From assembly GCA_027922465.2 (NCBI GenBank), contig BQMF02000006.1, forward strand, positions 248,001 to 312,000: DNA of 64,000 bases, given 5' to 3'. The stretch's first letter is position 1, and the number at the start of each line of letters is the position of its first letter. The notes below the pieces were generated by a model. That model had not been told where the DNA came from. It made no database searches and was given only the letters and a program-made list of their open reading frames with translations. Below are positions 8,870-62,759 of the stretch, piece after piece. A program made the translations under genes and the position numbers. The DNA comes from Turritopsis dohrnii. Lineage: Eukaryota; Cnidaria; Hydrozoa; Anthoathecata; Oceaniidae.

Positions 8870-9860
8870 CTGATGTTGCACAAAATAAGATAAAATAATT
8901 ACTCTCACAGCTCAATCTACCATTTTGTGTGACAGACAAACAGACAAAGAATCAGCTATCAATATATGGATACTATCTTATTACTTCATAAATTAAATGT
9001 GACATTTTAAAAATGGAATATATATTGACATATATATAAAACTACAAAGAATGAAATATGTACTGAAAAAACTTATTAAACAACTTTTTGAGCTCTATCG
9101 TATTTTTAAAGATCATTGTGGATGCAGGATTCCCTTTAACAAACTAGTATCCTGTTCGATTTTTTAAATTTTTTTAAGTTTTAATTTTGCAAATGAATTA
9201 TCAAAATCCCTAAGAAAAACATATTTTCTATTGGAAATTTTTTTCATTGAATTGATATTGAGAAAAGTGTCAAGAAGCTTTTTAAATGTTGCGAACAATT
9301 ATTTTCAATGAAAGAGTAGTTTTCCATTAAAAAAAATGTGTCTTCCTTCATTTTAACTCAGCAGTACTTTTCAAAAATATCAATTTAAAACAAAATCCTT
9401 TTCTCCTCCAGTACAAAGGTTGTCCACCTCAAATGTTGTCACCTCAAATGGGGATGTAATGATAGAGTGTAGGTAGCTTTTGTTATCTTTTCGTAAGACA
9501 CAGATGATCTACTTAGTCCATATTGTTTTCTTGCTATGGTGTGGAACTGCCAGTACATCCTTCCCTCCCTTGTCATTTCATTCAGTGAATTTTGCTTTCC
9601 AGCTAGTGAAGTTATCGCTTCTTTGATTTTGCATCATTGATAGAGGGTACCAGATTCAAGTGGTTGCTGTTCACCCCAAGCCATTTGACATTACATTTGA
9701 CATTTCCTCTGTAACTACTGCATTTCATGGAGCCAGTATCTTGGCCTTTGCTATGGCATAGGGTCCTTACAAATCTTGGACAAGACTTCTCTTGCTGGAT
9801 TTTGCATATTTTCCTGGATGAATGACCAGGTTTTCCCCTTTTTTATTTTTCTAATCTACT
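8870..9860. other. AT-rich stretch without recognised features
   Basis: No coding frame or inverted repeat that I can support. The last ~400 bp may be 5' sequence of the decayed LINE that follows. Confidence 0.4.
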
Positions 9861-31400: not shown

Positions 31401-32601
31401 ATCACTGTTACATTATTTTGGAAAGACAACTAGAAATCAACAACATATAGCGTACCAAGGAAATGTTTTGCTTTGAGGCTCCAAAAAAAACAACATCGAC
31501 TTTCTCTGCATATGATAAACCGTTGGGACAGCTATTTTTGATATGATCTCCAAACTCTCTGACAGGAAAAGTCAGTCCACATTTAAAAGGACAGTTAACA
31601 ATTTCAGCAGATATTTTCACGTCAACTTCAAATTCCTGGACCAAAAAATTCTCAGGCAATTTTTCTCCAGTTGATGGATTACATTTATTAGTTCTTGTGA
31701 TACAGTTCAGGCAGCTTTCGCAATAGTAAGTTGAACTATCATTTCGTATGGAAACCGCACAGTGCAGAATACCTTGACATATTTCACACTTGTAGCCAGG
31801 ATTATTAATCGGAAAAACAAATTTCTCTCTGCGTACGAAGATATCATAAGGTTGAGATACACTTCCATCTGCAGACGTCACGACAACATTGACCTTCAAC
31901 ACACCGTAGTTAAGTACAACAGAATTATTGTCAGAACCAAGGATATTGATCACACTTTTTTTATCCGGAGAAGTTGCTTCAATAAAAACGTTACTGACAT
32001 AGAAAAGAACTTCACATTCGTATGTATAAACATTAGGATTAAATCTTGGATTTAATTGAAAACCTTGAACTTTCAATGATGACAATACAGCACTGTTTGA
32101 TGATAATGATGAGATGTCAATATTGTAATTCTTTATCGTTCCATTTTCAGCGGTGACTTCAATAGTGTGTGTGAAACTTTTTCCTTCTTTAATTGCAATG
32201 ACTCGTTCAGGTCCACGTCCCTGAAGAAGAAAACCAACAACACCAGCGTGAATTTAGAAAAGTCGATTTCCAGTTATAAAATTATACTACCAAGCGCTTG
32301 TATGTAATCAAAAACTTTTAAATGCAAATATAAAACAAAGGTTGTTTATAATGGAAGAAAGCTAGCTTCACTACGTGTACTGACAAATATGTTTACTGAT
32401 ATTAACACCTCCAAAGATCGAATACTCTTAGTTTCTTACAGGGATTGTCCATGATGCATTGCAGTCCCTTGTTAAAGGATCAACTTTAATTTCTTTGATT
32501 CCACTACTTAGCACTAATGTATACTGAGTGATATTTCGATTGAATTTTGGGTTGAGTTTTCCAGGCTTCACAACAAGTTTTTCCAAATCTGCATCATCCA
32601 T
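28419..32601 (-). CDS. Cadherin-like beta-sandwich / RING-TRAF zinc finger / TPR protein, 1077 aa
   Basis: Nine minus-strand exons: 32601-32440, 32220-31456, 31385-31160, 31043-30886, 30802-30360, 30208-29740, 29664-29388, 29280-29161 and 29032-28419. Together they form one 3234-nt frame from ATG to TAG. Residues ~6-185 are two cadherin-like beta-sandwich repeats (LVVKPGKLNPKFNRNITQYT and LKVQGFQLNPRFNPNVYTYE share the L---G-L-P-F-P----Y pattern). Residues 199-240 are a degenerate RING/U-box (CEIC, YYCESCLNC, KCNPSTGEKL). 264-285 is a TRAF-type finger (C-x3-C-x11-H-x4-C). 315-334 is C2HC. From ~390 onward come TPR helices (AMEWLEKACQLYAYAI; YQLNAGKCYILHKKFDEAIK). A Lys/Pro-rich linker (KKAPNKTPGKVPAKPS, ~835-870) precedes the C-terminal TPR-like region. 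A scaffold or E3-like role is possible; no function is known to me. Confidence 0.85.
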
Positions 32602-49357: not shown

Positions 49358-52300
49358 ATGGCTAAACAAACGCCAATTGGAAGAAGCTCACCTCTATCTT
49401 CATCATCAAGCATTGTCAGTGAAAATAATTTGAGAGTTTATAGTGCTCACCATCATGATGGTCGAAGTAGGCATGATGGGAGTCTGTCTCCATCTGGTTC
49501 AATATCGAGCATACATGATGCATACTTTCTCAATGATCGCATACGAGGCTTGGAAAGTGAAAAATTGGCATTAATGATTGACCATAATAATTTGATCAGA
49601 GAATTCAACAAAAGAATGGAAGCACATCTTGATGAAATCCGAAACTTGAAAGAAGCAAACCAGAATATTGAACAAGAGTGCAATGAGTTACGGGACCTAT
49701 GTTGTTTTCTTGACGATGATCGACGCAAATGCAGAAAGTTAGCAAAGGAATGGCAAAGGTTTGGAAAGCACACTGTTGCAGTAATGAGAACAGAAGTAAT
49801 GTCATATCAAGAAAAACTAAGATCCCTTGAAACTAGACAAACAGAACTCATAAAAGAAAATAGCGAGCTCCGTGATTTATGTGTTTATTTGGATTCCCAA
49901 AGGACTGGTACTTTGAATGAGTCTTCAGCAATGATGTTAAATTATAGTATTTGTAAAAGTTGTTCAGAGTTAAAAAAAGGAAGCAGTCAGAATAGTGAAG
50001 AAAATACTTCTGGTAAGTGCTTTTACAATCGTTCCTATTCTTTTTTTATCAAAAACTAATCAATATATATGCTAAATCATACATCCTACAAGCAAGTAAG
50101 TACATAAGCTCCTTATGTAATCTCAATGAGAGTTAAGTTTATTAATACTCTTAAATATACAATACTAATTTTACAGGATTTATAACATGAAATGGATAAG
50201 GATGAGCTACTTGTTTTTTGTATGTATATATTGCCTATGTAATTAGTAACTAAATTTTTCTTAAGTTTGTTATCTTCGGTATAGGTACTCGATTTCCTCG
50301 TATTATTATAATTTCTACTGAATGTTTTTGAAATTTTTTGGGAAGAAGAAATTTTTAATTATAGTGCCTAGTGTGAAATATTTCCCAAACTCCAGAAATG
50401 TCAACTATGGTTGAGTTATAACATGATTGTGAAATGGCTTATAAGATATGAAAATTGAATTGATTTTGCTTTTAAAGATAATCAAATCTTTGATGATAAC
50501 AAAATTTGTCCAATTTGATGAAAAATTACTATATAATCTTTTCATACCACTTTTTAATATAGCCTATTTATTTATCAGACAAAAACAGTTATTTCTTTTA
50601 TGTTCTTTTTAAAATTTTAAATGGGCATTTAATTATACTTGATGGGAAAATATGACAGTTTTTTATTCCATGTACTTACTGCTGAGGCTCTTTACAAAAA
50701 CACTAGAATGGTTTTTTTCTTTATGTGCGTCACTTAAAATGATTTATCATTGAATTGCATTGCTTGTTCCTGCATTTCAATTTGTTTTTGTTTGTGTTGT
50801 TCTTGTTGCTGATCCTAGTGATAGTTGTCATTAGATTGATTTATTTACGAAACAAAATGTTTTATGATTGACAGTAATTTTTATTGTTATTTGTTGAATT
50901 TTCAAAATCCCACGTTTTAGTCTAAATATTTTTGAAATGAATAGACTACTATATTGGTGAAATAGAAATCTCTCATTCATAATAATATATTATAGAATTG
51001 TAAGGCTTTTTTCAATGCATTTTATTGATCACTATTTTGAATACCAAAAGCAGTTTAATGATTATAGACAGGTTTAACAGCTCATTGATTTAAGGATTCG
51101 AATTTCGATCAAATGTAATTTGACAATTTAAATCCAGCTAATTAGATACCCTAATATAGAAATTCAAGGAAAACATAATTATTTAGGTGTCATACAATAC
51201 ATGAAAACTTTAATTAATCAGTTGTTATCTTGTTTTGATTCAATCCCCATAGATGAACGTACAGAACATCTCCAGAATCAAGTGATTCAATTGGAACGAG
51301 AAAAAGAAAGCCTACATAAAATTTTGGTAAGGAACCGTAACAATCAGCTGTGTTGTTGAAATATATACTTTATAAATTCTAAAGTGGCTTATTGAAATTG
51401 AACATCTCCAATTGAGTAGGCATAAAAAGAGATATAGAAACTGTTACTGGTGTGTTTCTTTATAAAAGTCTGAACTTTTAAATAACCTTTCCTTATGTGT
51501 GTGGTCAATAGCAAAAAATAGCAAAATAGAAGGACAATCATTTTTTTATTTCAGATGTATGGTGGACGGAGTCGGCATGACAAAAAGAGAGTATCATTTT
51601 CTATGCCGACAGATGATGAATATGATTCATCTTCAGTAAGTGAAACGTGCATTGTACCTTTAATGGATATCACTGTTTGTTTTTTAGGAAAAAACATCAA
51701 ACATAGTGATGAATTTCTGCATGTTATAAAAAGATAGAAAATTACTTTTTAGACAACATCTGAAGTTGACCGATTGGATTTTCCACCGAACTTTGGAAGC
51801 ACAGAAAGTTTTTCCAGAATATGTAAGATGAAGATTGACTTTTCATTTTTAAATTTCGACATTATTAGAGAAAGATTTTGATAAATCAGATTTTCTAATC
51901 GTCACATATTTTCCAGCTGTTTTTCACAACACGGTACAGGTTTTCGAACAACCTTTAGTTGCTATCATGAGACAAAACAAGAAACCTTTTTATCAGATTT
52001 GAAATGATCGATTCTCTCCATATAGTGAAATTAACTGGCAGTTGAAATGTTTTTCTTGTTTGCTCATAAATCCAAAAATGGACAATACAATTTCCTGTCG
52101 TTTTTTGCAGACGACAACTCCAATATACTGAGGAACGGTCTGCTTCCTAATCCACTTGGAATACCTAGAACTCGGGTAAGTTCTTAAATTGAAAACAAAA
52201 AACAACTGATTGCAGATGAATCATATTTAAAACATAAACACATTTGTTGTCAACACATTTGTTGTTCGTCTCTAGGCGGCTTCGTTTAACGACATCTCGC

Positions 52301-52978: not shown

Positions 52979-54437
52979 AACTGTCTTGGCGACAACACGT
53001 GGATGCACAAAACAGCAGGAGCAGCAGCACATGACACAGTACAACTTACTAGCTGAGCACGCAACCTTACGTTTCGAATTCTTCACTATTTTGAGCTATC
53101 TTTTGAATCCACAGCAAAGAATAAATTATATGAAAATTTATAACGATCTGCAGTAGTTGTTGTTTTTAAAATAATTTATGCAGTTCTTTTCTATTTAATC
53201 ATTTGTAATGTTTGTAATTTCTTTCATGTATATTTATACTTATTTAAAAGAACATACATCGTCCACACTGTGTCCGAACTTTTCTTCTGCTTTCATAAGA
53301 AGGTTAAAGTGTAAAGACCATCGATGCTAACATCGTATTTTACATATTCCTTTGGTATTACAAAATCTGGTGTGGAAGATGACTCTTAGCAAATCATTGG
53401 TGCTGGTCACAAACATTTTTATTAGGAAGCCGAACAAATCGCGCCATGACAACGAGGACAAAAAGATAGTGTACCACTTCTAATACTATGGTTTGAATCA
53501 GTGCTGAGTAAGAAAGTTCTTACTCAGGCTAAACTACCTGATGAGAGTCGCACATTGACACTGCAAAAGGTACAAATGAATTAAAAGTGGAGTACCATGA
53601 GGGCAGAGGGTAGAACACAAGAAAAAAACAGGTTCATAAGTCTACAGAAACACAGTGGGAAGAATGTGTATTAAAACTCACTCATCGCTCAATAAAAACA
53701 TAAAGCACTTTCAAAATTTATTCAAGATAGAGATTTTGTAATAAAAGCTGATTCTGAGGAAGAGTTTGTTAAATTCCAGTAAGAACTTTCCATTTGTTTA
53801 TTTTATTTTGATTTGCCAGTCGTAACCAGTTTATCAATAAAATAATTTTTGTGAAGCTCTGTAGTCTCTCTACATCAACCTCTTGCCTATGCCCTTTTCT
53901 TATTTTGATAAAGAGAGATGCATTTAACTTTTTATCAATGGTAAAATAAAATAAATTGTTAAAAGCTGAGTTGAGTAAAAGAAATCTGTGTTTCTGCTGT
54001 TTCTTACTTGTGTCAGCTTGCAGTGGAGCCATAAACATAATTTTTGTATTGGGAAAAATAATTTCTAAAATTTAATTTCTAACAAATGTTTATGTTTTCT
54101 AAATATGTAACGAAACAACGAAACAAATGCAATATATGAAACGAAACAACGAAACAAATGCATATATACATAAGTCATATTTCCTGTATTCAAGTAAAAT
54201 GTTTTGATATGCTAGATAACTTACAGAAATCTGGCATAATTGCCCCCGCAGCGAGCGTAAGCGAGCGAGGAGGCATAGTAGTTTCACGAGATAGGCGAAT
54301 GTCAGTTTCCGATTTTGTTCATCATCATCATCATCATCATCATCCTCCAACTTTCGTGTTGACGTTACACGGTGGAATACAATTATTAGCTGACTTTGCT
54401 TTTTTTCCGTTTCAAAGCATGGTACTTTAAGTGGGAG
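52979..54437. other. CCDC85 3' UTR and flank of the transposon
   Basis: 54240-54290 has GCCCCCGCAGCGAGCGTAAG-CGAGCGAGG, a GC-rich repeat-like patch unlike its surroundings; 54320-54344 is an (ATC)8 microsatellite. No gene. Confidence 0.4.
54432..54437. other. Target-site duplication, left copy (TGGGAG)
   Basis: TGGGAG immediately precedes the transposon and is repeated exactly at 59385-59390. Confidence 0.85.
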
Positions 54438-54548
54438 TACGGTGGCACATTAGTGCCATCAAGTAACAAATTCATCTATTGAAACAAACTCGTTTCACAG
54501 GACGTCCTACGAAATCACAGGACGTCCTATGAATTCACAGGACGTCCT
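54438..54548 (+). repeat. Left 111-bp terminal inverted repeat
   Basis: Outer 57 bp are unique; the inner part is a 20-bp-period array of CACAGGACGTCCT. Three units are inside the TIR and a fourth follows at 54558-54570 on the left only. Each unit contains the 10-bp palindrome AGGACGTCCT, a likely transposase-binding site. Confidence 0.9.
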
Positions 54549-54623
54549 GCGTACTCACAGGACGTCCTAAGACGTGCTCCAGGAGATACCGTGACCATCT
54601 CCACATTAACATTCCTAATCAAA

Positions 54624-57411
54624 ATGGCGTCACTGATCACGTTTCTTCGGGGACGAAATGTTCCTGAAGAAGTGTTAAAGAGACTGGAAGAAGACCATAT
54701 TGATCTGAATGCTGCAAAAGCAGCATCCAAAGATGAACTTATACAATATGGATTAAAAGTTGGAGATTATTTTGCATTAAGGGGATTCATCGAGTCGCAA
54801 GCCGGGAGCTCGAGTATCTCATGTTTTGATGATGATTCTGTACCATCGTTTTCAGATGACAAAATAATCATGAAAGAACATTTGCTGAAACGTTTTTTAG
54901 ATCGTAAGAGGGATCTTACATCCACTCCTGTTGTTCCAAGGAGATCTTTCAAGCCTCAAGAAAGGATGAAGATATGCGAAAAGAATGTTAAAAAAGGCCA
55001 TGTTCTGAAAAAAGTGTCTTTGGGGTGGAAGCACTATGACCATCTCACTAAGAGATTTGTAACAATTCGTGAAGGAAAAAAGGGTGGTGGCACAAGAATT
55101 TGCAAATTTGATATAAATATTGATGCAAGCACTATCCTCAAAACTGCAAAAAATCTGTTTTTTCCAAACAAAAAGAGCTTTTTTGGAACATCTGAATCAA
55201 TGCTGTTTGAGTTAGGAAATTTCAAAGAAGAATTTATAAAGCAAGATAATTTCAAGTTGTCTGAATACATTGAAGAGCACAAGCTAGCTCATGTACGTTT
55301 ATACTTGATGACTAAAAGTGTGTTTGATTTGGGATATTTTGAAGATGATAGTAGTGATGATAGTGATTTTACAGCCGATATGATGGGTAAGCTATTTTAT
55401 ATATATAATGGTGTAAATAGAAATGCCTATATATTGATACAGAAAATCGAAAAATGTCTGGTCTACCCTACCTGCATCTTTTTACAAACCTTGGTTTTGT
55501 GTTTGTTCAATATATTTAAAACTTCAAATTGAATTATGAAAGCAGCTCTTATGCTAGAGTAGTGCTAACCAATGTAATGGATATAATATTATATATATGT
55601 TGTTTCTCAAAATCTTATGGATGTTGTATGTATTGCAGGAAATTTAGGTGAAGAAAAAAAACAGCCAAAAGAAGATGGAATAATACATAAAGATTCTACA
55701 GAAGAAACAAAATTTGTACAGGAAGCAAAAACTCTTAAACGTGAATCCAGGGCATTGAGAGTGGGTGCTGAACCTGGGCTTTCTGAAGATCACGTAGTAA
55801 TAAAGTTGACACATCCTATTGCAGGTGAAAAAACTCGAATATTCTCAGCAGGAGTACAAGTGAATGAAATATACGATTGGGCAGGGAGTCTGTGTGATGA
55901 GCCAGAATATTTCTGTCTCTTCAGTGAAAGAGGACCATTGGAAGGTATTCAGCAAGTACTAACCAACGCTGAAATTAGAATGGAGGAATGCACTGCAGCA
56001 GAGATGATGTCAGTTTCAAATGAAGTAAATTTTCATGGTTTTGGTGAGAAGGTTGATTATAAGATTGTAAGAAGATCTCATGTTGTACAAGATTTATTGG
56101 CTGTATTTAAAGAGAGTTATGATGTTGACCTTACAATGTTACGTTTAATGAACTATCATGGCAACTTAGAAGATGGTTGTGGATTTGGGTTAATTCGAGA
56201 GTGTTTTTCCATGTTTTGGAAAACCTTTAGTGAAAACCATTTGGATGGATTCTTAGAAATGGTTCCCCTTACTACTACTGGCCTTTCTAAAGATGATTGG
56301 GTTTCTGTTGGACATATGATAATCTATGGTATAAAAGAAATTGGCTATTTCCCGCTAAACATTTGCAGATATCTTTTGCTACAATGGTTCAATTGTGAGA
56401 CAAATTCAGAAGATTTGTTTGCTTCTCTAATGAATTATGTCTCGCCTGATGAAAAGCAGGTATATTTTTACTTGTTTTTAAACTTGACCTCACAAAAAGT
56501 ATATATTATAGATATTTTTACTCACAATAGTGAACATGAGATGATTTTTACAAAAAATCAATATAATACGCATGTATTTGTTTATTATTTTTTATTATTC
56601 TTGTTATTCTTGTTATTATGTATTGAGATGATTTTTATTTATACCAAGTTTCATGTTTTTCATTATTCCACATTTCAACAGCCATTAAAAGAAAATATTA
56701 GCCTGATATTATATCTAATTACAATGCATATTCATTTCACAACCAATTTTTTAGATTTTTACTTTCCAATTTTTAGGTTGCCTCCGTTATACTTTATTGT
56801 ATTACACTTGATTGACTCTTTAATTTCAGGCATTGGAAACATACATTCAGAATGAAATGAAAGACGATATGGTCGATGAGGAAGTACTGCTAGAAATAAT
56901 TGATGGTCTTGGGGGGAGATTTGCTCTTTCTTCGTCTACATTTAAGGTAGAGCTGTTAAAATTAGCTGAAGCTAAATTTGTACAAGGCCCTGCTTTTATA
57001 ACAAACATCATGAAAACACTGATTACTAAAAGTGGAATTGACATGAATTCAGAAAGACTTAAAGAGAAATTCAATGAATTACGACCATCTGTTGCATCAA
57101 TGTTAAAGTTACTTGCGTTTCAAGAGATAAAATCAAAAGAGGAACACAATGCTGCAGAGTATTTGAAAAGATTTATTAGAAGCTTGTCAACAGAGAATCT
57201 TGCTAAGTTCCTGCAACTTCTCACTGGTGCAGATATCATAGTGGTGGATCAGATATCAGTTAATTTCATTGATGTAACTGGATTTCGGAAGCCTATGTTT
57301 CGTACTTGCGCACCTATAATAGACTTACCTATAAATTACAGAGACTATACTGATTTCAAACATGAATTCCTTTCCATTTTGTCGGCAGGTAACGATTTTG
57401 GCATGCCGTAA
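54624..57411 (+). CDS. Transposon-encoded SAM/UBX-like/HECT-like protein, 721 aa
   Basis: Three exons: 54624-55386, 55639-56459 and 56830-57411 (TAA), one frame. I start at ATG 54624 (AAAATGG); the longer frame upstream only begins with GTG. Residues 1-57 look like a SAM domain (ITFLRGRNVPEEVLKRLEED...GLKVGDYFALRGFI). About 305-347 resembles a UBX/ubiquitin-like fold (IAGEKTRIFSAGVQVNEIYD). Residues ~395-721 follow HECT ligase order: NYHGNLEDGCGFGLIRECFS is like the HECT N-lobe GxDxGGLxREFF motif, WVSVGHMIIYGIKEIGYFPL comes next, and the C-terminus MFRTCAPIIDLPINYRDYTD then FKHEFLSIL fits the catalytic tail, with Cys688, 33 residues from the end, as candidate catalytic Cys. It would ligate ubiquitin; the role in transposition is unknown. 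Similar HECT proteins are often annotated 'G2/M phase-specific E3 ligase-like' in invertebrates and fish. Confidence 0.78.
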
Positions 57412-57513
57412 TGATAAGCATTAACTACTGAGTTTCATATTTTATTTTGTTCAGCTGAATGAAAACTTGATTTTTTGTTTTATGAATGTTACCTGTTGCA
57501 TGTTTTGTTGCTA

Positions 57514-57641
57514 ACCAAACCCAGGTTTTATTTTGTTACTTACCAAACCCAGGTTTTATTTTGTTACTTACCAAACCCAGGTTTTATTTTGTTACTTACC
57601 AAACCCAGGTTTTATTTTGTTACTTACCAAACGTGGTTTTG
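57514..57641. repeat. 28-bp tandem repeat between the two transposon genes
   Basis: Unit ACCAAACCCAGGTTTTATTT-TGTTACTT, four full copies and a fifth partial, in the gap between the convergent 3' ends. Possibly neutral expansion; the related ACCGAACCTAGTTTTTA and GACGGAACCCAAATCTTG nearby are diverged units. Confidence 0.9.
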
Positions 57642-57981
57642 TTTGATATTTAAATCACAATCCACTTTTGTTTTATAACTGACGGAACCCAAATCTTGAT
57701 TTGTTAGTGTTGAAGTCTACTCTTGTTTTGTTTACGATCATGTCCGATTTTGCGCCAAAATTGACCGAACCTAGTTTTTACATTTTTGTTGTTATGCAAA
57801 TTATTTTATTGCTTTAACTACATTGAAATTATTTTGACGGAATCAAGTTTGTTTCAGTGTCATCGCAAGTTTCACATTTTGTATTTTTTCTTAATAGAGA
57901 TTACAGAAGTCGAAATTCATTCTTGTTTACAGTTTACTTTCAACAAACTTCATCAACCTCATAAAAGATTAACAATGTGAC

Positions 57982-59151
57982 TCAAATATTAGAAATATCA
58001 TTCAGTAACTTGCAATACAATGTTGCAGCTTCGTTAGGATTGGTTGGCGCTGTGTAGGCATTATTGCGCATCAAGAAATCTGCTAGGTCAGAAAATTCTT
58101 CACTACAATCCATTATGGCTTCGTTGTTACATAATAAATTTTGGACTGCTACAATATCGGTAGCAGAGAAGTGCTTCGCATAACTGCTTGCGCCAGTCAG
58201 GTTTGGGGCATGAAATAGAACGTCTGGTCTACCTGCTGGTACAACTGTATGTCTAACTGATCGAATATGATGTGAATTCCAGTTGACTTTGATTTCATCT
58301 AATTCACGTCGAATTAATGGAATGAAACAATACCTCAAACACTCTTGCTGAAAATCGTTGTTCCCATTAAAAAGTCCATTATCTCTAAAGTCTTTGAAAA
58401 ATGAAAGCCAAAACTCAGTGAAATATTTTCTCAGGAAGCTCCACCAACATTCAATCCTTTGATTTGAAGTAGATCTTCCATACATGAAGCTATTTAAGCC
58501 TGAATAATGATCTTGATGTTGCCTTCTTAAGAAACACTGGGCAGCGCACACATTAACATTTTCTGTTCCGCAATCGGCTCTTACACGAGAAGGCATGACA
58601 CCCATCTCTCGCAAATATCTAACAAAGTACGAAGATATAACTTTTGGATTCTTATTTGTACAACAAACTTCTAACCACAAAATTTTCCTGCTATATCCGT
58701 CAATTCCAGCATGAATTGAAATTCCAAAAGGTTTTAGCTTATCATATCCATCAATGTGAATTAAGTCATTTGGGCCTCGAACGGAGTATTGTCGTCTTTT
58801 AAAACGTTTCCTTTTTCTTTTTTCTACTCCCTCAGGATCTAAAAGCTTCAGAGCAATACTGACCGTTTTGTTATCTACATTAAATCCATACTTCATAACC
58901 AAAAGCTGCTTCATTTGACGATACCCTAATAAACTGCTTCGTGTTGCTAACTCTTCTGACAGAATGCCCAAAACCTCGTAAGGATCATTCGAGACATTTC
59001 GACGACGAAGACCAAGTTCACTTACTTTTCTCTTTAAGTGACGTAAACTTATTTCAATTCCATGCAAATTCTGTAAAAGGGCTAATATTTCTATGTACTT
59101 AAATCCTCGTTGGTGGTAATGATGAATAAGATCCTCTCTTGAAGCAGCCAT
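57982..59151 (-). CDS. Transposon integrase (rve/DDE), 389 aa
   Basis: Single exon, ATG at 59151 (AAGATGG). The frame also continues upstream to a GTG at 59226, which I do not take as start. Residues ~5-50 form a helix-turn-helix (IHHYHQRGFKYIEILALLQN...SLRHLKRKVSELGL). A basic patch KRKRKRFKRR is at 111-120. The retroviral-integrase-like core carries D134 (LIHIDGYDKLKPFG), D193 (RVRADCGTEN) and E234 (NQRIECWWSFLRKYF), spacing D-58-D-40-E as expected for a DDE/rve nuclease. This would cut and join transposon ends at the TIRs. The final ~150 residues are less conserved and end LLNDISNI. No stop or frameshift. The same 'integrase core domain' proteins are numerous in cnidarian and fish genomes. 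Confidence 0.9.
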   Translation of the reverse strand: MAASREDLIHHYHQRGFKYIEILALLQNLHGIEISLRHLKRKVSELGLRRRNVSNDPYEVLGILSEELATRSSLLGYRQMKQLLVMKYGFNVDNKTVSIALKLLDPEGVEKRKRKRFKRRQYSVRGPNDLIHIDGYDKLKPFGISIHAGIDGYSRKILWLEVCCTNKNPKVISSYFVRYLREMGVMPSRVRADCGTENVNVCAAQCFLRRQHQDHYSGLNSFMYGRSTSNQRIECWWSFLRKYFTEFWLSFFKDFRDNGLFNGNNDFQQECLRYCFIPLIRRELDEIKVNWNSHHIRSVRHTVVPAGRPDVLFHAPNLTGASSYAKHFSATDIVAVQNLLCNNEAIMDCSEEFSDLADFLMRNNAYTAPTNPNEAATLYCKLLNDISNI

Positions 59152-59273
59152 CTTAGTTCTTTGACTTTCTTTATGTTTTGATTTTTTAAATTCCAAGACA
59201 TGACCACGTGTGAAACTTATTGTCACGGTTAGTTCTGGACCATTTTCATCGTCATGACATAATACTAGTTTGT

Positions 59274-59384
59274 AGGACGTCCTGTGAATTCATAGGACGT
59301 CCTGTGATTTCGTAGGACGTCCTGTGAAACGAGTTTGTTTCAATAGATGAATTTGTTACTTGATGGCACTAATGTGCCACCGTA
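59274..59384 (-). repeat. Right 111-bp terminal inverted repeat
   Basis: Exact reverse complement of 54438-54548, including three AGGACGTCCT palindromes at 20-bp spacing. The fourth unit of the left end is absent. Confidence 0.9.
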
Positions 59385-59390
59385 TGGGAG
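59385..59390. other. Target-site duplication, right copy (TGGGAG)
   Basis: Directly adjoins the last base of the right TIR (…GCCACCGTA|TGGGAG). Confidence 0.85.
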
Positions 59391-61664: not shown

Positions 61665-62759
61665 AAAGCCTTTGACACCGTACACCATCAGCTGTTATTG
61701 ATCAAACTTAAGGAACACAACTTCGCCAACTCTGCGATCAAGCTGATAGAAAGTTATCTGTCTGGACGTAAGCAATTTGTTCAAATTGATGATATTAAGT
61801 CTACCACCAAGGATATCAACTATGGTGTACCACAGGGAAGCATTCTTGGTCCGATGTTATTTAACCTTTACGTAACCAGTATGTCCAACCACGTCCGTAG
61901 TACGTGCCTCCAATATGCAGATGATACCAACATCTATCAGCACTGCAAGCATAAGAACATTAGAGATTGCGCACAAAGTCTCGAAGACGACTTGAACTCC
62001 CTTGCAAGCTGGTCAACAGAGAACAACCTGATCTTCAACCAACTCAAAACAAAATCTATGTTATTTGCCACGCCTGCCATGTTCAAAGCACACAATCTCG
62101 GTGATCCGAACACATATAACATTAGTCACCTTGACCGGACAATAGAACGAGAGAAGACGACGAAAATACTTGGAGTCATCTTTGATGAAAAACTTCAATG
62201 GAAAGATCATATAAATAAGCTGTTGTCTTGCGGTTATTCGACGCTGAGAATGATAAAAAAAATCAAAAGATTCACGCCATTCCACCTGAGGAAAAGTTTA
62301 GCTGAAATGTTGATCTTCACTAAACTTGACTACTGCAACATCGTATTCATGGAATCGTCCGAAGAATTGAAGAAACGGCTGCAAAAACTTCAGAATGCAG
62401 CAACAAGTTACGTCACCAACCAATATAGTAGAACTTCTAACACCGTCAACCTAAACTGGCTTCCGATTAAAGAAAGAATGGAGTTTTCAGCAGCAAAGAT
62501 AGCATACAAATCTATCTACGATGAGCACTGGCCTGAACATCTGAAGAATCGGTTTCGTGAACCAAATGAACGTCTACGAAATGCAGGAAATTTTAAACTG
62601 CCGACGTCAAATATCAAGAACTCATTTCTAGACGTAACTAGCAAAGTATTCAACGATTTACCATTGGGCATACGTAATGAAATTAATTCTATAAACTTCA
62701 TCAGAAAATCCAAGAGATACCTTCACGACAAAGCTCTTGCCAGAACAATTGCTGATTGA
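61665..62759 (+). pseudogene. L2/CR1-type LINE reverse transcriptase, 3' two-thirds
   Basis: One open frame to TGA 62759 beginning inside the RT: KAFDTVHHQLLLIKLKEHNF, GVPQGSILGPMLFNLYV, CLQYADDTNIYQHC (YADD catalytic motif, 61914-61925), TTKILGVIFDEKLQWKDHIN, FTKLDYCNIVFMESSEELKK, LNWLPIKERMEFSAAKIAYK and KVFNDLPLGIRNEINSINF. The first RT blocks and the whole endonuclease are deleted. The intact remaining frame suggests the deletion is not old. Probably the same element as 60698-61126. Confidence 0.85.

Follow-up and report, generated by a model that had tools for sequence, protein, structure and literature searches.

Does a gene resembling a HECT-type ubiquitin ligase belong to the DNA transposon in which it lies, and what might it do there? 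The question is raised by positions 54438-59384 of a 64-kb stretch of contig BQMF02000006.1 from Turritopsis dohrnii (hereafter the window, meaning that whole stretch), which read as one 4947-bp element with ends TACGG..CCGTA. We consider it quite probable that this is an autonomous cut-and-paste transposon of the IS3EU type, whose second gene encodes a HECT-type E3 ligase as a regular part of the element. An earlier note on this DNA had given the coordinates, a flanking TGGGAG duplication, identical 111-bp terminal inverted repeats (TIRs) and two convergent genes, and re-reading of the sequence bears out each of these, as it does the 721-residue length of the second protein, the placing of its Cys688 33 residues before the C-terminus, and the transposase residues D134, D193 and E234. 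A perfect inverted match of 111 bp together with a matching 6-mer is not a product of chance. The parts of the element and its flanks are as follows.

54432 to 54437, no strand: left target-site duplication (TSD), TGGGAG, read from the sequence
54438 to 54548, plus strand: left TIR, 111 bp, starting with TACGGTGGCAC and identical to the right end
54496 to 54568, plus strand: four subterminal repeats, CACAGGACGTCCT, with a 20-bp period and the palindrome AGGACGTCCT, from a repeat scan
54624 to 55386, plus strand: exon 1 of the HECT-like protein in the splice model, with a weakly SAM-like start (residues 1-60) and a conserved domain (residues ~115-235, 54966-55328)
55639 to 56459, plus strand: exon 2 in the splice model, with the middle region and the start of the HECT-like N-lobe (residues ~395-528, from 56058)
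56830 to 57411, plus strand: exon 3 in the splice model, with the remaining HECT-like domain, the C-lobe and the stop codon
57307 to 57309, plus strand: codon of Cys688, the putative ubiquitin-accepting Cys, in a TC..LP context, from the sequence and the family alignment
57982 to 59151, minus strand: transposase gene, 389 residues, DDE residues D134/D193/E234, Pfam rva_4 (PF24764), from the open reading frame (ORF) and Pfam
59274 to 59326, minus strand: three subterminal repeats of the right side, inverted relative to the left, from a repeat scan
59274 to 59384, minus strand: right TIR, 111 bp, ending in CCGTA and identical to the left end
59385 to 59390, no strand: right TSD, TGGGAG, read from the sequence

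Comparison with Pfam assigns the transposase an rva_4 integrase core (7e-37). D134, D193 and E234 are invariant across 19 aligned transposase sequences, the window's included, and the DDE residues are retained in all nine families compared. Reading of the sequence finds no Cys upstream of D134 and hence no upstream HHCC motif. When the transposase was searched against a protein collection, 971 of 3530 candidates fell at E<=0.001, and its relatives include proteins of Acropora palmata and A. cervicornis with 47-48% identity. Passages of the published descriptions give IS3EU, or GingerRoot, TA..TA ends, a 6-bp TSD and an integrase-like DDE transposase without an upstream HHCC (PMC10045372), with TAYGG..CCRTA ends and 6-bp TSDs in the members from rust fungi (PMC12730594); ends, duplication and DDE type are as in the window element. 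The ends are TACGG..CCGTA both here and in four further long copies, which agrees with the TA..TA and the TAYGG..CCRTA rules. The TSD is perfect in 13 of the 16 copies with two canonical ends, carries one mismatch in two and is absent in one, a count that leaves aside L026, L027, L028 and L029, in which an end is missing or non-canonical. The transposase, for its part, has the DDE of the IS3/IS481 integrase group in its rva_4 core and no upstream HHCC. Judged by its sequence, the element fits the published IS3EU terminal and duplication rules, and the IS3EU affiliation that had been suggested for it is upheld by ends and duplication. An alignment of the transposase found no relatives in IMG/VR and, in GTDB, one 3.8-kb contig (L001) under the record of a Cycloclasticus sponge symbiont, which holds transposase fragments in several frames and gave no match to HECT.

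No AGGACGTCCT repeats with the 20-bp spacing occur in the 64-kb window outside the element, and repeat arrays of other motifs lie near both ends in all five further families examined. These 20-bp subterminal repeats are likely transposase binding sites. The copy on C89 (L011) holds 7 + 14 subterminal AGGACGTCCT units versus 4 + 3 in the window copy, and such arrays seem quick to change length. Separately, the spacer that divides the two convergent genes contains about five 28-bp tandem repeats (CCAAACCCAGGTTTTATTTTGTTACTTA), at window positions 57503-57644.

Enzymes of the HECT class accept ubiquitin from an E2 on a Cys close to their C-terminus. The 721-residue product of the second gene, a splice model predicted from the sequence with two introns that are both GT..AG, is supported as a HECT-related protein and a putative E3 ligase. 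What makes the HECT relationship firm is the evidence from relatives, that is, the family profile, the Pfam scores and the conservation of the Cys. A five-sequence family profile matched TOM1 in the PDB at 3.4e-9 over profile positions 92-406, followed by HUWE1, RSP5, E6AP and the NEDD4 family. The window protein scored 206 bits against a profile built without the window sequence, and none of 500 shuffles was reported. One relative, the 706-residue P0001, which came from an initial search of proteins with the window's HECT sequence (best 8000 candidates scored), is 25% identical to the window protein over 83% and reaches 24.7 bits against Pfam HECT, just above the cut-off of 23.9; the profile search added P0122 and P0123, each on a 7,607-bp contig. 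Scanning of ten relatives or pieces with Pfam HECT placed five above the cut-off (26.6-44.3 bits) and two below it (L060 at 23.4, P0123 at 20.9), with no match in three, all of them N-terminal or N-lobe pieces. The catalytic Cys is aligned in all nine families compared, preceded by T in eight and followed by LP in eight.

Upstream of the HECT part, the SAM-like start that the earlier note had claimed stands only weakly: STE11 SAM is its best PDB match (E=0.053), and of six members compared with Pfam SAM_1 a single one matches, at 0.18. The stretch at residues ~115-235 (..W.HY...V...GGG.R...LFFPN..) recurs in 20 of the 21 relative loci searched for it, L066 being the exception, and these loci correspond to 16 distinct places by our own grouping, as several overlap. 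Its consensus is ..LGW.HY...K.Y..VR...GGG.R...LFFPN.., with no significant match in Pfam or the PDB. Reading of the sequences indicates that the N-terminal parts vary among families, with a SAM-like start in some and, in others, a Cys-rich stretch located between the ~115-235 domain and the HECT part.

Is the second gene a constant part of the element? Copies were sought in a 436-Mb assembly of 891 contigs with the element's leftmost 571 bp as query, a search that copies without either end would escape. The 82 matches form 20 places when grouped by eye; 19 of these were fetched in 20 stretches, and the twentieth place is the window. Five are long copies with gene bodies, namely the window copy and those on C34 (4940 bp), C89 (5228 bp), C23 (4650 bp, about 92.5% identical to the window) and C243 (16.2 kb, interrupted). 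All of them contain HECT gene matches, and every copy is flanked by a different, perfect 6-bp duplication (TGGGAG, TAAACT, CCTTTT, GCTTCC, CTTTTC). The TIR search for full-length copies lacking the HECT gene thus found none among the five long copies, which favours the gene as cargo. The 15 places left over are short or lack one end. Nine measure 521-935 bp and match the ends only, five are smaller or incomplete, and L024 (C42:427522-430138) spans 2617 bp with a CATTGG duplication and no ORF of 100 residues. Roughly 100 bp at the ends of L024 share about 95% identity with the window element; the inside, a large inverted repeat whose arms measure 486 bp, is unrelated to both genes. The C89 transposase protein is identical to that of the window, which points to recent movement. 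In the C243 copy (C243:456856-473084; L013, L014), the HECT gene is ~99-100% identical to the window's and the transposase pieces are ~91-92% identical; this copy is perhaps a mosaic produced by gene conversion.

The same copies bear on the idea that two unrelated elements are nested here, with the HECT gene inside the TIRs by accident. Interrupted copies do exist in this genome, the 16.2-kb C243 copy being one, and yet those on C34, C89 and C23 match the structure of the window copy nearly end to end. In addition, a TIR and a 6-bp duplication surround both genes in five of nine fetched regions from other families (L060, L062, L063, L065 and L067; the TIRs of L065 match with 2 of 16 mismatches). 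A scan of the other four regions found neither in stretches that are possibly too short. A nested or composite origin is rejected on the strength of the copy structures and the TIRs and TSDs of the five other families, and its probability is close to nil.

That the gene is borne by more than one family is apparent from its position relative to transposase genes across the genome. The transposase search gave 106 places (the best 106 of 1874 candidates scored), six of which are the window's own family, with C243 counted in two pieces. HECT genes were sought with the window protein (73 matches, best 62 of 498 candidates scored), with Pfam HECT (139 matches, best 129 of 548 scored, probably including ordinary cellular HECT genes) and with the HECT of L065 as query (109 matches, best 80 of 433 scored). 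The pairing count used 66 of the 73 window-protein places, leaving out seven own-family exon-1 matches, together with all 139 and all 109 of the others. For at least 60 of the 106 transposase places, a HECT relative lies no more than 8 kb away on the convergent side, where 0.31 would be expected by chance with places spread evenly; the other side has 1. The figure of 60 combines 58 found by HECT match with C118 and C261, added by hand from fetched loci (58 of 106 without them), and these are not 60 independent events, many being copies that share a family. A first count, with two HECT searches and 6 kb, had given at least 29 of 106, and when four places without a match after that count were fetched and read, three held a HECT gene (L065, L067, L068). 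The description of the ligase as standard cargo is therefore sustained, by the five long copies and by the paired transposase places. As separate observations, a YqaJ-like recombinase ORF (1.8e-11) adjoins an IS3EU-type transposase at 8990-9499 on the minus strand of L066, on C441, and three transposase places on C441 follow one another at intervals of about 10.3 kb, as they would in a tandem repeat.

Constraint on the two genes can be compared in the window and C23 copies. The HECT gene has a synonymous rate (dS) of 0.109 and a nonsynonymous rate (dN) of 0.0236, with a ratio of 0.217 over 678 codons (42.5 synonymous and 37.5 nonsynonymous changes), and the transposase has dS 0.097 and dN 0.0164, with a ratio of 0.169 over 389 codons. 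In this one copy pair, the HECT gene is thus constrained about as much as the transposase. Such constraint matters for the proposal that the HECT gene is a captured host gene riding as an idle passenger in this family. Transposons commonly capture genes, and high-scoring, probably cellular HECT matches are present in the same genome. An idle passenger would, however, be hard to reconcile with a dN/dS of 0.22 between two diverged copies, with a Cys retained in nine of nine families, or with a constant side and orientation in many diverged families. Further, 55 of the 73 HECT matches are 25-36% identical to the window protein, which speaks for an old spread. We reject the idle passenger on constraint, Cys conservation and the recurrent convergent pairing, and regard it as very improbable.

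Several results nonetheless count against a ligase that travels regularly with the element. At the level of the single protein, the 721-residue sequence scores 18.5 bits against Pfam HECT (residues 624-720), below the cut-off, and an implausible, unrelated model, CTD1, reaches 17.9 bits on the same protein. A PDB search with the 721-residue protein alone found no HECT, and exon 3 alone reached HUWE1 only at E=0.36. The HECT-like tail described in the earlier note consequently stands as a relationship detected by the family profile and falls short for the protein alone, which is under the Pfam cut-off. This distance from known HECTs, along with an N-lobe motif that departs from that of the other families, would suit a protein with a HECT fold that is no ubiquitin ligase, being inactive, using a ubiquitin-like protein or serving in binding only. 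Such a protein is improbable given that the Cys and its T and LP neighbours are conserved as described and that five relatives score above the Pfam HECT cut-off.

The other counterpoints concern copies, pairing and descent. Four of the five long copies have one or both genes broken, and the window copy alone has both open: C34 has a frame change in the transposase, C89 one in HECT exon 1, C23 lacks about the last 40 residues of the HECT gene, and both genes of C243 are damaged. A broken HECT piece of the window's family on C127 (L045), met through the HECT search, has no element ends and no transposase match. Among the best candidates scored, 46 of the 106 transposase places are without a convergent HECT, 44 having none within 8 kb and two having one positioned elsewhere. 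L066, the fourth of the fetched no-match places, shows no HECT gene, although C398 and C500, taken as belonging to its transposase family, do have one. The dN/dS values of near-identical copies are uninformative and partly above 1: those of C34 are 1.05 for HECT and 1.32 for the transposase (5 and 6 changes), C89 gives 0.52 and 0 (3 and 1 changes), the C243 HECT gene gives 0.26 (2 changes) and its damaged transposase 0.92. Lastly, HECT and transposase distances correlate across nine families (Mantel r 0.72, p 0.002, or r 0.79, p 0.006 with L067 left out), and cutting a tight trio to one member leaves seven families with no correlation (r 0.21, p 0.28). The trio drives the distance correlation, and deep co-descent is not supported by the seven-family test. 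For recent splits, joint descent of the HECT and transposase genes is likely.

These patterns touch directly on a ligase that has no host target and acts on its own transposase, through turnover, nuclear level or a cutting-to-joining switch, in the role of copy-number regulator or assembly factor. The two genes stay together, are convergent and are under similar constraint in one copy pair, and the second protein of two-gene transposons is often needed for transposition. Opposed to this are the lack of support for deep co-descent and N-terminal parts that differ among families, which would fit varied targets. On balance, regulation of the transposase itself is unlikely to be the use of the ligase, though it is a serious contender.

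How does the pairing relate to known systems? G2E3 (G2/M phase-specific E3 ubiquitin ligase) is a HECT ligase, which the window protein probably is too, and has PHD-type fingers that precede the HECT domain. Pfam detects no PHD finger in the 721-residue protein at E<=10, which sets it apart from a G2E3 orthologue. The HECT protein of L067 scores 33 bits against Pfam HECT and has motifs that we take to be G2E3-like. In Cottus fish, a passage on unclassified repeat candidates reports a blastx match to G2E3 among them (PMC5638112), and this fits the reading of a transposon-borne HECT gene.

Closer parallels come from transposons with other second enzymes. In the passages available, fungal IS3EU elements carry TET/JBP and alpha-kinase genes, with the transposase and alpha-kinase in opposite orientations (PMC12730594). 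They resemble the window element in holding extra genes of a signalling or counter-silencing type and differ from it in the enzymes themselves and in their fungal hosts. Ginger1 transposons, according to passages of their description, carry OTU or Ulp1 protease domains, from which the authors suggest that the ubiquitin pathway takes part in transposition (PMC2836005). Here too an integrase-like transposon is combined with an enzyme of the ubiquitin/SUMO pathway, whereas the Ginger1 enzymes are ubiquitin/SUMO proteases that form C-terminal domains of the transposase, and the duplications are CCGG/CCGT-specific (PMC2836005). Membership of the window element in Ginger1 was rejected, its TSDs being 6 bp long and varied and Pfam finding no OTU or Ulp1 domain. 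By word count, HECT and ubiquitin are absent from the main texts of PMC10045372 and PMC12730594, although Repbase entries might note HECT, and neither word occurs in the main text of PMC4255032. A HECT gene paired with IS3EU was not found among the papers listed, judged by titles, abstract beginnings, word counts and passages, a search that had Repbase and most subscription journals outside its range. Since IS3EU elements with other second genes are already published, the HECT pairing is a variant and not a new category.

Elsewhere in the window, a 353-residue ORF at 61698-62759 (plus strand) has a reverse transcriptase domain (RVT_1, 8.5e-16) and is probably a truncated non-LTR (long terminal repeat) retrotransposon. 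A 225-residue ORF at 31408-32085 (minus strand) opens with a Cadherin-like beta sandwich domain (6.2e-9) and continues into a Cys-rich part. Positions 49358-50059 (plus strand) match the CCDC85 family at 1e-48, which points to an animal as host.

If the second gene is indeed a transposon-borne ligase, its action can be sketched. In DDE transposases of this group, cutting and joining take place at the TIRs. The transposase of the window element would bind the TIRs and the 20-bp subterminal repeats, excise the element and insert it with a 6-bp stagger. Host machinery would splice the transcript of the second gene, and the ligase made from it would load ubiquitin onto Cys688 from a host E2 and transfer it to whichever protein its N-terminal domains select. 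As to which protein this may be, the most likely use, put forward tentatively and with somewhat less than even confidence, is to modify a host factor that keeps the element in check, such as a silencing, repair or checkpoint protein.

Automatic annotation reports 'G2E3-like' genes in such animals. It is conceivable, if rather speculative, that a large animal IS3EU lineage is defined by its own HECT ligase with a conserved N-terminal domain, used for counter-defence or licensing against host proteins, in which case many of these annotated genes would be transposon genes. HECT gene counts in such genomes may be inflated by transposons. An enzyme that adds ubiquitin, if retained in many families of a single superfamily, would represent a different way for a transposon to act on the cell, and the question of why transposons touch the ubiquitin pathway would become testable with a named protein.

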